The notes below the pieces were generated by a model, which searched no databases, was not told where the DNA came from, and saw nothing but the letters and a program-made list of their open reading frames with translations. This document shows, in pieces, positions 2,638 through 55,071 of a DNA stretch of 64,000 nt. This DNA is from Aquificaceae bacterium (GTDB lineage Bacteria > Aquificota > Aquificia > Aquificales > Aquificaceae): NCBI GenBank assembly GCA_026981975.1, contig JALSHV010000010.1, forward strand, positions 62,001-126,000, given 5' to 3'. How positions within the stretch are numbered: position 1 is the stretch's first letter; the number at the start of each line of letters is the position of its first letter. The position numbers and the translations under genes were made by a program.

Positions 2638-4931
2638 TCTATTATATCACCGACTTTTATATCGTTGAAATTCTGAAGTTTTATCCCACATTCATAACCT
2701 TTTGTTACTTCCTGAACGTCCTCTTTAAAACGCTTTAGGGATTCTATTTTTCCTTCATACACTATTACTCCTTCTCTTATGAGCCTTGAATTTTTACCTC
2801 TTACTATCTTTCCTTCTAAAACGTAACAACCAGCCACTGTGCCGATCTTTTTGATTTTAAAAACAGCTCTTACTTCAGCAGAACCAAGTATTTCTTCCCT
2901 TTCTATAGGTTCTAAAAGACCTTGAAGGGCTTTTTTAACATCGTCTATAACTTGATATATTATGCTGTAGAGTCTTACATCTACCTTTTCACGCTCCATC
3001 AATTCCCTTGCCTTAGGATCAGGTCGTGTGTTGAATCCTATCACAATTGCAGAAGAAGCTTTAGCAAGCATAATGTCGTTCTCTGTTATACCACCTACAG
3101 CTCCGTGAATAACTCTAACAGCTACTTCTTCAGTGGAAAGCTCTTCAAGGGACTTTCGCAGAGCTTCTAAGGATCCCATTGTGTCCGCCTTAATTACAAG
3201 CCGTAATTCACGGGTTTCTCCCGCTTCTATTTTTTTGTATATATCTTCAAGTCTAATTCCCTGAGCAGTTTTTTCCTCCTTTTCTCTTTTCTCTTTTATT
3301 TTTTCCGCAATATCACGTGCCTTTCTTTCGCTTTCTACCACCACCAACGTATCCCCTGCCACAGGAAGTTCTTCAAATCCGAGAACTTCAACAGGAACAG
3401 AGGGTCCGGCACTTTTCACTTGCCTACCCTTGTCGTCAAACATAGCTCTTACTCTTCCGTATGTTATTCCTGCAACAAATACGTCTCCTACGTGCAGTGT
3501 TCCTTCCTGGAGAATAACAGTAGCGGTAGGTCCTTTCTTGCGATCCAGTTTTGCTTCTATGATAATTCCCTTTGCTCTTTTATTAGGATTTGCTTTGAGT
3601 TCAAGAATATCTGCCAATAAGGTTATCATTTCAAGAAGTTGTTCCACGTTTTCTCCAGTTTTTGCGGACACATCTACAAATATGGTATCTCCTCCCCAAT
3701 CTTCGGGGATCAGTCCATGATCAGATAGTTCTCTTCTTACCTTCATCGGATCCGCACCGGGTTTATCTATCTTGTTTACAGCCACAATTATGGGAACATT
3801 AAAAGTTTTTGCATGGTTTATCGCCTCTATTGTCTGAGGCATTACACCATCGTCCGCGGCTACCACAAGAACCGCTATATCGGTTATCTGTGCGCCTCTT
3901 GCGCGAAGGGAAGTAAAAGCTTCATGTCCTGGTGTGTCTAAGAAAGTTATGGTTCTCCCGTTGGGTAGTCTTACCTGTGAAGCTCCTATATGTTGAGTTA
4001 TTCCCCCTTTTTCCTTCTGTGCTACGTTGGTCTTACGAATTCTGTCCAGCAAGGTTGTCTTACCGTGATCTACATGTCCCATAATAACCACTATAGGAGG
4101 TCTGGGTTTTAAGTCTTCTGGTTTATCTTCTATCTCTTCTATAAGGACTTCTTCTTCTTCTTCTTTTTTTATTTCCGCTAAAACACCAAAAGATTCTGCT
4201 ATTTCCATAGCTGTTTCGGGAGGAACACTTTGATTTATTGTTGCAAGAATTCCTCTCTTTAAAAGCTCTTCTATTATTTTGTTGGCAGGAACTTCAAGTC
4301 TTTGAGCCAATTCCCTTACTGTTATTCCTTCTTCTATTTCTATTATCTTTATTTCTTCCTTTTTCTCCTTTGGTTTTTCTTTTTTCTTTTCCTTCTCTAT
4401 TTGTTGTTGTAGTTTTCTTAAGATCTGTTCTTCTTCTTTTATCAGTTTTTCCTGTTTCTCTTCTTTGGAAGTTTTAATTTCTTCTTTTTTTTCTTCTTCA
4501 GTTTTGGGTGTTTCTACCGGCGGTTTTTCAATAGGTTTTCTAAATTCTCTGACTTTTTTCGGAGGTTTAGCTCTAAGTCGCGGGGGTTCTACTTCTTCTA
4601 AAGGTTTTTCCTTTATCTCTTTGCCGAGAGCTTCCGCAACAACTTCTTCTATGGGTTTTTCTTCAACGGAAATTTCCTCTTCCTCCTCTTCAGAAATCAA
4701 AGGTGCTTTTTCCTCCCTTTCGGGAATAGCCTTGCTTTTTTCCTTTTCTCTTTTATCCTTAGGTTCTCCAAATTCTTGATATATCATCTCCAACTGAAAT
4801 TCTTCCAGAATATGGAAGTTAGACCACTTCTTATTGTCTTCCCGCGGAGACCACTTTTCAAGAAACTCTATGAGTTTCTTAGGTTTAATTCCCAGCTCCT
4901 TTGCAACATCTTGAACTCTTTTCTTTTCCAA
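2601..4931 (-). CDS. infB: Translation initiation factor IF-2
   Basis: GTPase that delivers initiator tRNA to the 30S subunit. 776 residues. There is an N-terminal IF2N helical domain, a long charged Lys/Glu linker (about residues 58-200), a second IF2N domain (about 200-250), then the G domain with G-H-V-D-H-G-K-T at 285-292, D-T-P-G-H and N-K-I-D, and C-terminal domains II-IV. The start is TTG at 4931, supported by AGGAGG (4946-4941) 9 nt upstream; no nearby ATG fits. A -10 TATAAT lies at 4961-4956. The unusual TTG start on a core translation gene is noted. Confidence 0.97.
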
Positions 4932-33279: not shown

Positions 33280-33918
33280 TCAATCTATACCGTGCATCTT
33301 GAGATTCTCCTTTATCCTGTGTAAAAGTTCCGCAGGATTCTTTACAGGAAAGTCTATTTCCTCTATGACCTCTTCTGCCCTTCTACCTTTTATCATTAAA
33401 CCGGAAAGTCTGCCTTTTAAAGCTTCAGATGAGTTAATGGGAAAGTGAATACCCTTTATGCGCTTGAGAATCATATAAGCCCATGGAATATCCAAAGCCA
33501 TAGCTGTTTGTGTGCAATACTCCAGAAATACTCTAGCTTCCTCATGTCCTTCTTTTACTAATTTGTAAGCGAGTTTTGCTATCCCGCCTGCGGTATGGAC
33601 ACGAAGTTCCTTTTTCTCCTCCTGCGTAAGTTCGTCTATATGTTCTATCTTATAAAGAGCAAGTTCCGGATCAGCTCTTAGTATATTTCTAACCGTTTGA
33701 CGGGTAAGTCCTACGATCTCCGCTATTTCTTCCTCTGTTTTAAGATATTCTTCTCTAAGAACCACCGCAAAGGAAGCTCTTGCTAAGGAAGGTAACCAAG
33801 TAAGAGTTCTAAACTCCGCGAGTTTTTGAAATCCTCCAAGCAGATCAATGGCTTTAAGGAATACTCTGACAACAAGAGGTTCAGCATCAACTTCCATAGG
33901 TTTAAGTTCTACTACCAT
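33280..33918 (-). CDS. Helix-turn-helix regulatory protein
   Basis: 212 residues, no membrane segment. A helix-turn-helix lies at about 61-81 (T-E-E-E-I-A-E-I-V-G-L-T-R-Q-T-V-R-N-I-L), preceded by a helical region. I tentatively connect this to the 'probable regulatory domain' that occurs near KaiC-like genes in archaea and Aquifex; that link is from memory and uncertain. The C-terminal part is helical without a recognised ligand domain. Heads an operon with tamB and recG. Its promoter region carries copy A of the 68-bp element shared with hfq. GGAGGG (33928-33923) precedes the ATG. Confidence 0.65.
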   Translation of the reverse strand: MVVELKPMEVDAEPLVVRVFLKAIDLLGGFQKLAEFRTLTWLPSLARASFAVVLREEYLKTEEEIAEIVGLTRQTVRNILRADPELALYKIEHIDELTQEEKKELRVHTAGGIAKLAYKLVKEGHEEARVFLEYCTQTAMALDIPWAYMILKRIKGIHFPINSSEALKGRLSGLMIKGRRAEEVIEEIDFPVKNPAELLHRIKENLKMHGID

Positions 33919-33931
33919 TTTTCCCTCCAGA

Positions 33932-33957
33932 ACCCGGCTGCTGATACTTAGCCGGGT
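33932..33957 (-). promoter_or_regulatory. Leader hairpin of the HTH-regulator operon
   Basis: ACCCGGCT (33957-33950) pairs with AGCCGGGT (33939-33932) over a 10-nt loop. It begins in the last three bases of the 68-bp element and ends 4 nt before the Shine-Dalgarno, so it could affect ribosome access. A hairpin of different sequence but the same position precedes hfq. Confidence 0.55.
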
Positions 33958-34022
33958 GCCGGGCTATTTATACCGCGCCCCTTTGGGTGTCCACGAACCC
34001 GGCAGGCGCCATTTGGACACCC
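33955..34022 (-). repeat. 68-bp element, copy A (upstream of HTH regulator)
   Basis: 66 of 68 bases identical to copy B at 54753-54820; both point towards their downstream gene. Contains the inverted repeat GGGTGTCCA ... TGGACACCC (9-bp arms, 20-nt centre) and a TATAAA box at 33973-33968. About 60% G+C in an AT-rich region. Can be read as a promoter with an operator over its -35 region, or as a structured RNA leader. No -10 box is seen just upstream of this copy; tRNA-Pro ends 32 bp before it. Confidence 0.8.
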
Positions 34023-34054: not shown

Positions 34055-34127
34055 TCGGGGTGCCGGGACTTGAACCCGGGACCTCAGGCCCCCCATGCCT
34101 GCGCGCTGCCACCTGCGCTACACCCCG
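34055..34127 (-). tRNA. tRNA-Pro (GGG)
   Basis: Acceptor CGGGGTG/CACCCCG, D arm GCGC/GCGC, anticodon arm CAGGC-ATGGGGG-GCCTG with anticodon GGG, T arm CCGGG-TTCAAGT-CCCGG, discriminator A at 34055. The C1-G72 pair is typical of tRNA-Pro. CCA is not encoded. Its -10 (TATAAT, 34142-34137) overlaps the stop of the HU gene. Confidence 0.95.
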
Positions 34128-54739: not shown

Positions 54740-54745
54740 TATAAT
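54740..54745 (+). promoter_or_regulatory. -10 box upstream of 68-bp element copy B
   Basis: TATAAT; the first base of the element (54753) lies 7 nt downstream, so a transcript starting here would begin with GGGTGTCC and contain the entire structured leader. No clear -35. Not present in front of copy A. Confidence 0.4.
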
Positions 54746-54752
54746 GTGCAAA

Positions 54753-54820
54753 GGGTGTCCAAATGGCGCCTGCCGGGTTCATGGACACCCAAAGAGGCGC
54801 GGTATAAATAGCCCGGCACC
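54753..54820 (+). repeat. 68-bp element, copy B (upstream of hfq)
   Basis: 66/68 identical to copy A. Inverted-repeat arms at 54753-54761 and 54782-54790, TATAAA at 54803-54808, and a second pair TGCCGGG (54771-54777)/CCCGGCA (54812-54818) that can pair across the first stem, a pseudoknot topology. About 62% G+C. The two differences from copy A are at 54781 and 54795, both outside the paired arms. Confidence 0.8.
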
Positions 54821-54841
54821 TGAGCCGTGAGTGGTTCAGGT
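54818..54841 (+). promoter_or_regulatory. Leader hairpin of hfq
   Basis: ACCTGAGCC (54818-54826) pairs with GGTTCAGGT (54833-54841), with one G-U pair and a 6-nt loop. It begins at the same place relative to the 68-bp element as the hairpin in copy A, though the bases differ. Confidence 0.55.
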
Positions 54842-54867
54842 ATAAAAGGTGTAAGGAGATGTTTCCT

Positions 54868-55071
54868 ATGGAAAAAGAAGTAAACATTCAAGACGAAATT
54901 TTAGATAACTTCAAATCAAAAGAAAGCACTGTTACGATTTATCTGACGCGGGGGAACAGAATTACGGGTAAGATTTTGAATCACGATAAATACACAATAC
55001 TTTTAGACGTAGACGGTCAACCCAATCTCATCTACAAACACGCTGTCAGCACAATAGTAGAAGGTAAATGA
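54868..55071 (+). CDS. hfq: RNA chaperone Hfq
   Basis: Sm-like hexameric RNA-binding protein that pairs small RNAs with mRNAs. 67 residues from ATG 54868, which has AAGGAG at an ideal 9-nt distance; the earlier ATG at 54859 would sit directly on the ribosome site. Sm1 (V-T-I-Y-L-T-R-G-N-R-I-T-G-K-I) and Sm2 (I-Y-K-H-A-V-S-T-I) are clear, with Y/K-H present. Short tail, as in other thermophiles. Overlaps hflX as ATGA. Confidence 0.95.
   Translation: MEKEVNIQDEILDNFKSKESTVTIYLTRGNRITGKILNHDKYTILLDVDGQPNLIYKHAVSTIVEGK

Follow-up and report, generated by a model that had tools for sequence, protein, structure and literature searches.

A repeated mRNA leader ahead of hfq and other Aquificota genes, with a probable origin in the guide-RNA scaffold of IS607 transposons

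The window analysed here, a stretch of 64,000 nucleotides from an Aquificaceae genome (G000), contains two copies of a 68-bp element at 54753-54820 (+) and 33955-34022 (-), which are identical at 66 of 68 positions (97%) and stand ahead of hfq and of a gene for an HTH protein. What is such a repeat doing in front of two unrelated genes? A preliminary description had drawn attention to the pair and to a 9-bp inverted repeat inside it with a 20-nt centre (GGGTGTCCA/TGGACACCC), both of which we confirm, and had offered a shared promoter-operator, a structured leader or a small mobile repeat as explanations. The comparisons presented below identify the element as a structured mRNA leader, an assignment that is well supported by covariation, by position and by conservation at orthologous genes.

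The two window copies are members of a larger set. A DNA-level search of the same genome returned 17 matching places (E-values 1e-29 to 8e-6), and a covariance model trained on 11 own-genome copies identified 18 strong copies and one weaker (26.5 bits). All 18 strong copies are in the sense orientation directly 5' of start codons, and the genes that follow, named from their translations, are unrelated: hfq, the HTH gene, ppa, moaD, rpmF, ftsZ, rpsT, rseP, tatA and others. The earlier proposal that many genomic copies unrelated to promoters would favour a dispersed repeat is thus borne out as regards number, but nearly all copies lie directly upstream of start codons.

All copies can be described by a common fold, which was beyond the preliminary description in its helices P2, P3 and P4. 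A 65-nt core (54753-54817), approximately the repeated 68 bp, is composed of three helices in the order P1-P2-P3-P1'-P2'-P3' (ABCABC), in which every helix crosses both others, and is followed by the variable hairpin P4. The sequence of P4 is copy-specific, yet a hairpin is found there in nearly all copies. The features of the two leaders are given below; the strands of the hfq leader rest on the alignment of 79 sequences (A5) and on copy comparison, and those of the HTH-gene leader on copy comparison.

54740-54745, + strand: TATAAT, a -10-like box of hfq read from the sequence, 7 nt upstream of the element
54753-54761, + strand: P1 5' strand of the hfq leader, GGGTGTCCA, pairing with 54782-54790; two-sided changes at 8 of 8 counted pairs in 79 sequences
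54766-54770, + strand: P2 5' strand, GCGCC, pairing with 54796-54800
54772-54778, + strand: P3 5' strand, GCCGGGT, pairing with 54811-54817; two-sided changes at 7 of 7 pairs
54782-54790, + strand: P1 3' strand, TGGACACCC
54796-54800, + strand: P2 3' strand, GGCGC
54801-54810, + strand: conserved A-rich single strand between P2' and P3', GGTATAAATA, with TAnAARTA kept in nearly all copies
54811-54817, + strand: P3 3' strand, GCCCGGC, at which the common core ends
54818-54841, + strand: P4, copy-specific hairpin ACCTGAGCC..GGTTCAGGT, which varies between copies and remains paired
54853-54858, + strand: Shine-Dalgarno sequence AAGGAG of hfq, read from the sequence, with the start ATG at 54859 or 54868
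54859-55071, + strand: hfq, which this copy precedes as leader (Pfam PF17209, E 5e-21; NCBIfam TIGR02383 above cut-off)
34055-34127, - strand: tRNA-Pro(GGG), its 3' end 32 nt upstream of the second copy
34014-34022, - strand: P1 5' strand of the HTH-gene leader
34005-34009, - strand: P2 5' strand of the HTH-gene leader
33997-34003, - strand: P3 5' strand of the HTH-gene leader
33985-33993, - strand: P1 3' strand of the HTH-gene leader
33975-33979, - strand: P2 3' strand of the HTH-gene leader
33965-33974, - strand: conserved A-rich single strand of the HTH-gene leader, GGTATAAATA
33958-33964, - strand: P3 3' strand of the HTH-gene leader
33932-33957, - strand: P4 of the HTH-gene leader, copy-specific hairpin ACCCGGC..GCCGGGT (sequence and copy comparison)
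33924-33928, - strand: Shine-Dalgarno sequence GGAGG of the HTH gene
33280-33918, - strand: probable regulator gene served by the second copy (NCBIfam TIGR03879, 'near_KaiC_dom')

Pairing is almost complete wherever the copies differ. Among the 11 own-genome copies, 99.3% of cells are paired, with two-sided changes at 13 pairs. For the 79 distinct sequences from many genomes in A5, 99.0% of 1940 cells are paired and two-sided changes are seen at 23 of 25 pairs; none of 500 shuffles reaches the observed score, and sliding the partner by one column lowers pairing to 50% or less. Because the A5 alignment model was fitted to P1 and P4 only, the evidence for P2 and P3 is independent of the alignment. 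P4 is paired in 99.2% of cells with two-sided changes at 5 of 5 counted pairs, its ends having been located by a simple script that is wrong in a few rows (e.g. L081). Each of the three mutually crossing helices is backed by two-sided changes, and their simultaneous formation in three dimensions is the predicted fold; a nested double pseudoknot of the HDV type is ruled out by the ABCABC helix order. P2 shows how the strands are exchanged: GCGCC/GGCGC in the hfq copy is CCGCC/GGCGG in other copies, and in the weaker own-genome copy (L044, G000:C13:70437-70526), which is divergent and has the usual fold, it is replaced strand for strand by GCGGG/CCCGC. The base before P2 also covaries with the second base after P2' (G with G or U; A with A) in alignments A1 and A5, although both are unpaired, which suggests a non-standard contact or two subtypes. 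The TATAAA that had been put forward as a -10 box is part of the conserved single strand that links P2' to P3', and the TATAAT of hfq lies outside the element; inspection of the hfq locus by eye revealed no good -35 sequence.

The fold does not correspond to a described family, in agreement with the preliminary description. With the 4227 models of Rfam 15, matches in the window at or above gathering score were to tRNAs only, and no match was returned over the element there or in 12 further loci; a known riboswitch, ribozyme or Rfam family is ruled out on these grounds. The available excerpt of a survey of Aquificales non-coding RNAs (Lechner 2014; PMC4227106) describes no such element.

The search was extended to other genomes, as had been suggested for this locus. 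By covariance model 86 of 136 Aquificota genomes carry copies, at 0 to 35 per genome. The 35 copies are in G024 (1,500,577 bp), which we take to be Thermocrinis albus; no copy occurs in six further genomes of that genus. This genome has two hfq-like genes (L088 and L098), with a leader at each. Relatives of the element are also carried by thermophiles of phyla beyond Aquificota. A pattern scan of named genomes places the taxonomic range at no less than the following groups, found among the matches listed: Fervidicola, Caldanaerobacter, Thermovorax, Thermoanaerobacter, Thermosyntropha, Carboxydothermus, Caldicoprobacter, Caldisericum and Thermodesulfobacteriaceae. Copies number 7 to 19 in each of Carboxydothermus, Fervidicola, Caldanaerobacter, Thermovorax and Caldicoprobacter. 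The named isolates among the listed carriers are, we presume, all thermophiles.

A probable source of the element is indicated by copies from Caldanaerobacter and Thermoanaerobacter wiegelii, in which homology continues upstream into a reading frame that ends about 40 nt before the element. Its product matches TIGR01765 and TIGR01766, with the guided-TnpB family NF040570 below cut-off, and in one locus (L164) an IS607-family TnpA (NF033518, E 1.5e-67) is encoded upstream of the TnpB-related frame. These copies possess an extra 5' hairpin, P0, with a loop (CUUGG or CCUGG) that complements a CCAGG directly after P4; the pairing of a CYUGG loop with CCAGG is found in 54 of 63 copies with tnpB. 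In the reRNAs of IS607 elements, the loop of a 5' hairpin forms PK2 by pairing with the scaffold end that immediately precedes the guide (PMC11061315). The tnpB-linked copies lie directly downstream of an IS607-type TnpB gene, as such reRNAs do, and by their sequence organization they are the right end of an IS607-type transposon with the reRNA layout, in which binding and guiding of TnpB are putative. The three-crossing-helix fold is an addition to the IS607 guide RNAs that has not been described before. A genuine P0-type copy occurs at approximately 3880-3924 of a viral-classed IMG/VR contig (L258; 172,670 bases), and a second viral-contig match to the pattern (L257) is spurious.

The copies fall into two sharply separated classes. 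Of 216 non-redundant copies with sufficient upstream sequence, 54 combine tnpB, P0 and CCAGG, 141 lack all of these, and the other 21 are mixed. Both window copies belong to the class without tnpB: neither the hfq nor the HTH copy adjoins a TnpB gene, and neither has P0 or the CCAGG with which PK2 would form. Their genome contains no tnpB of the element-linked family and, genome-wide, two short TnpB-like fragments only. Seven solo copies without tnpB or P0 retain a transposon-like P4 and an ACCAGG-like end, the pattern to be expected of intermediates. The earlier suggestion of a mobile repeat is accordingly upheld for the likely origin, the tnpB-linked copies being an IS607 right end, but not for the window copies themselves, which have no transposon genes and show the conservation of functional leaders.

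The position of the copies is that expected of a leader. A start codon with an open frame follows P4 by 5-25 nt in 184 of 216 copies, and in 136 of 153 without tnpB, as compared with 25% of random same-strand positions and 17% of those on the opposite strand. For copies without tnpB or P0, 47 exact TATAAT boxes fall within 60 nt, and 25 of these sit 5-9 nt upstream of P1, which predicts a transcript starting at P1. In many other cases the element comes within about 25 nt of the end of a long upstream open frame, and several copies sit between cistrons with no obvious promoter. A tRNA gene lies within about 30 nt ahead of two copies, namely the HTH copy of the window, possibly cotranscribed with tRNA-Pro(GGG), and L191 (7136-7221; tRNA-Leu, in a deltaproteobacterial MAG). 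Since these two follow a tRNA gene closely, maturation of the tRNA may be what generates the 5' end of the mRNA.

Comparison of orthologous genes, also proposed at the outset, argues for selection on the fold. The htpX leaders of nine relatives are paired in 97.8% of cells; P2 and P3 are common to all, while P1 has two-sided changes at 5 of 8 pairs, and 0 of 500 shuffles attain the covariation score. Leaders recur at rpoA in family f3 and at napA in genus g13, and those of ftsH, hfq, rho, infC, rpsT and rpmF recur across genera. The HTH-gene element is found in two families: an apparent ortholog in f3 (G095, L385), which has the segment KAIDLLGG..WLPSLARASF in common with the window protein, is preceded by the same element with a P1 that is different in sequence but paired. 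As pairing persists at orthologous genes despite the change of P1, the fold is under selection at transposon-free loci.

From these observations we propose that the leader probably descends from an IS607 guide-RNA scaffold. In this account the 68-bp core, together with P4, serves as leader for hfq, the HTH gene and some 16 other genes of this genome, and the core is homologous to the reRNA scaffold of an IS607-type TnpB transposon family of thermophiles. IS607 inserts at GG without duplication (PMC6188088), and the TAM of IS607 TnpB is AGGAG in most tested strains (PMC11061315). The left border of nine full copies reads GGAGG in eight and GGCGG in one, which fits with a GGAGG belonging to the host Shine-Dalgarno sequence; its variable extension to AGGAGG or GAGGAGG is consistent with this, the alternative being bases borne by the element. 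Insertion at the GG within such a sequence would leave the right end, sense-oriented, immediately ahead of a start codon, and would account for both the position and the orientation of the copies. If so, the SD-like GGAGG is at once target and TAM, which offers an explanation for IS607-type elements landing ahead of start codons. In L301 (G137:C6:541-1829) and L210, a Caldanaerobacter P0-type copy abuts a SAM riboswitch or terminates within it, just past the presumed position of its conserved GGAGGGA; this is probably an insertion into the SD-like GGAGGGA upstream of an apparent SAM synthetase gene.

Certain lineages would then have lost the transposon genes, the left end and the guide-proximal P0, and with them presumably the DNA-guiding function, while gaining a promoter at the 5' edge and retaining the folded core. 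Folded compactly, whether at the start of the mRNA or at the front of a cistron further along, the leader would keep its 5' end base-paired and leave the ribosome-binding site just outside the structure; it could slow decay that depends on the 5' end and help translation at high temperature. A role as 5' stabiliser or translation support is plausible from the arrangement of the leader. RNase J, the classic 5' exonuclease, was not detected in G000, G024 or G017, in which controls were positive and RNase E/G and RNase Y are present; protection from RNase J is therefore excluded as the stabilising role. RNase E/G favours free 5' ends, and protection from this enzyme is for that reason the most concrete proposal. 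Taken as a whole, domestication of an IS607 scaffold as an mRNA leader that slows decay and aids translation is the explanation towards which we lean, and it would make mRNA 5'-end protection in hyperthermophiles open to test.

The main rival to the stabiliser mechanism is a regulated leader, riboswitch-like or protein-bound, that tunes translation of a regulon (Hfq, FtsH, HtpX, Rho, ribosomal proteins, RNA polymerase alpha and others) to a common ligand or protein. It could conceivably account for the conserved unpaired bases (TAnAARTA and others), for the recurrence of genes that act in translation, in proteolysis and in RNA metabolism, for the Shine-Dalgarno sequence directly adjoining P4 and for the presence of up to 35 copies in a single genome. 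However, no expression platform is visible in the element sequence, the Shine-Dalgarno sequence being normally outside the structure with no alternative pairing found; the genes have no common pathway, and certain relatives within the same genera have no copy at all. We regard regulation as possible, with a clearly smaller chance than stabilisation. The bolder form of the idea, in which a scaffold domesticated without its protein has spread as a knotted 5' leader over dozens of hyperthermophile core genes to form a global post-transcriptional regulon under a common ligand or RNA-binding protein, is a speculation that we think unlikely to hold.

A second rival accepts the leader and reverses its history: an IS607 transposon would have taken up an ancient bacterial 5' leader as part of its guide RNA. 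Such a capture would give much of the same pattern, which counts against the explanation favoured here. The leaders are indeed the more diverse group, the P2 forms GCGCC and GCGGG occurring mostly or only without tnpB (29 of 34 for GCGCC), and some genes carry leaders across families. On the other hand, the SD-like GG position follows from IS607 insertion, solo copies with a vestigial transposon-like P4 and CCAGG exist, and the arrangement of P0 and pseudoknot in the tnpB-bearing copies is the general IS607 reRNA layout. We hold capture to be a rather doubtful course of events, if one to be kept in mind.

The copies might instead be relics or non-autonomous mobile units, merely tolerated at start codons. 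Cores that are near-identical from P1 to P3 are found in the window (54753-54817 and 33958-34022), in four copies of G000 (L001-L004) and in about ten of G024 (among L074-L092), and copy number differs strongly between close relatives (35 versus 0 within one genus). In the near-identical copies P4 and all flanks differ, as if the core alone had been homogenised or copied. Simple vertical maintenance does not account for this pattern; gene conversion inside the core, or selection for one sequence, would each produce it. Tolerated relics are nevertheless improbable, as compensatory evolution at single orthologous loci and 99% pairing show that the fold is selected, and as the window's own genome has only the short TnpB fragments.

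It is very improbable that the copies are active guide RNAs serving in trans a TnpB or a nuclease-dead, TldR-like repressor. The homology to an IS607 reRNA scaffold, after which the sequence would be guide, and the five TnpB genes of another clade in G024 (C1 724926, 350676, 796323, 638212 and 330885) could be taken in its favour, but none of the five adjoins a copy, G017, G054, G144 and G145 carry copies and have no TnpB family match at all, and P0, required for the guide-proximal pseudoknot, is lost in copies of the window type. A TldR-like guide function is rejected, several carriers being without TnpB. Scarcely credible is the shared promoter-operator through which the HTH protein would control itself and hfq, a reading suggested by the two near-identical palindromic copies: an operator is a conserved sequence of double-stranded DNA that precedes or overlaps a promoter, and it would not tolerate compensatory replacement of its arms, whereas here the arms vary freely provided that pairing holds, the element begins at the predicted +1, 5-9 nt downstream of TATAAT boxes, and it stands ahead of many unrelated genes, so that covariation and position rule this reading out.

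Among known systems, the leader of ompA is a protective 5' stem-loop in which the 5' end is paired and the ribosome-binding site that directly follows is open. The present element resembles leaders of this type in its paired 5' end and differs in being knotted, in having many copies per genome and in its probable transposon ancestry. In fold it is closest to the ABCABC 'pseudotrefoil' pseudoknots (PMC3390330), which have the identical three-helix crossing pattern; the available part of that report gives 51 sequences with the pattern, and Rfam has no such family with the sequence of the element. The RAGATH-18-derived reRNA of IS607 TnpB (PMC11061315) is likewise situated directly downstream of TnpB, with a PK2 hairpin loop and a compact structured motif between the PK2 partners, and its TAM, AGGAG, is similar to the GGAGG left border described here. 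In contrast, the middle motif of our element is a three-helix crossing fold, and most Aquificota copies are without TnpB and PK2; no RAGATH-18 match was obtained in TnpB-linked or window copies, taking RAGATH-18 to be among the 4227 Rfam models. The ISXfa1 TnpB reRNA, also of IS607 (PMC10711439), has in common with the element a crossover insertion at GG, a flanking G in the scaffold and a required pseudoknot near the guide; it is reported to consist of three simple stem-loops, and the excerpt of that work at hand reports no use as a leader. A functional parallel is TldR, in which, according to the portion of the report available, exapted TnpB repressors with guide RNAs turn a TnpB system to control of host or prophage genes (PMC13418256). 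TldR keeps the protein, and its RNA guides DNA binding, whereas the exaptation proposed here would have dispensed with the protein and kept the RNA scaffold as a part of housekeeping mRNAs, and the evidence that its fold has been selected over the long term is strong.
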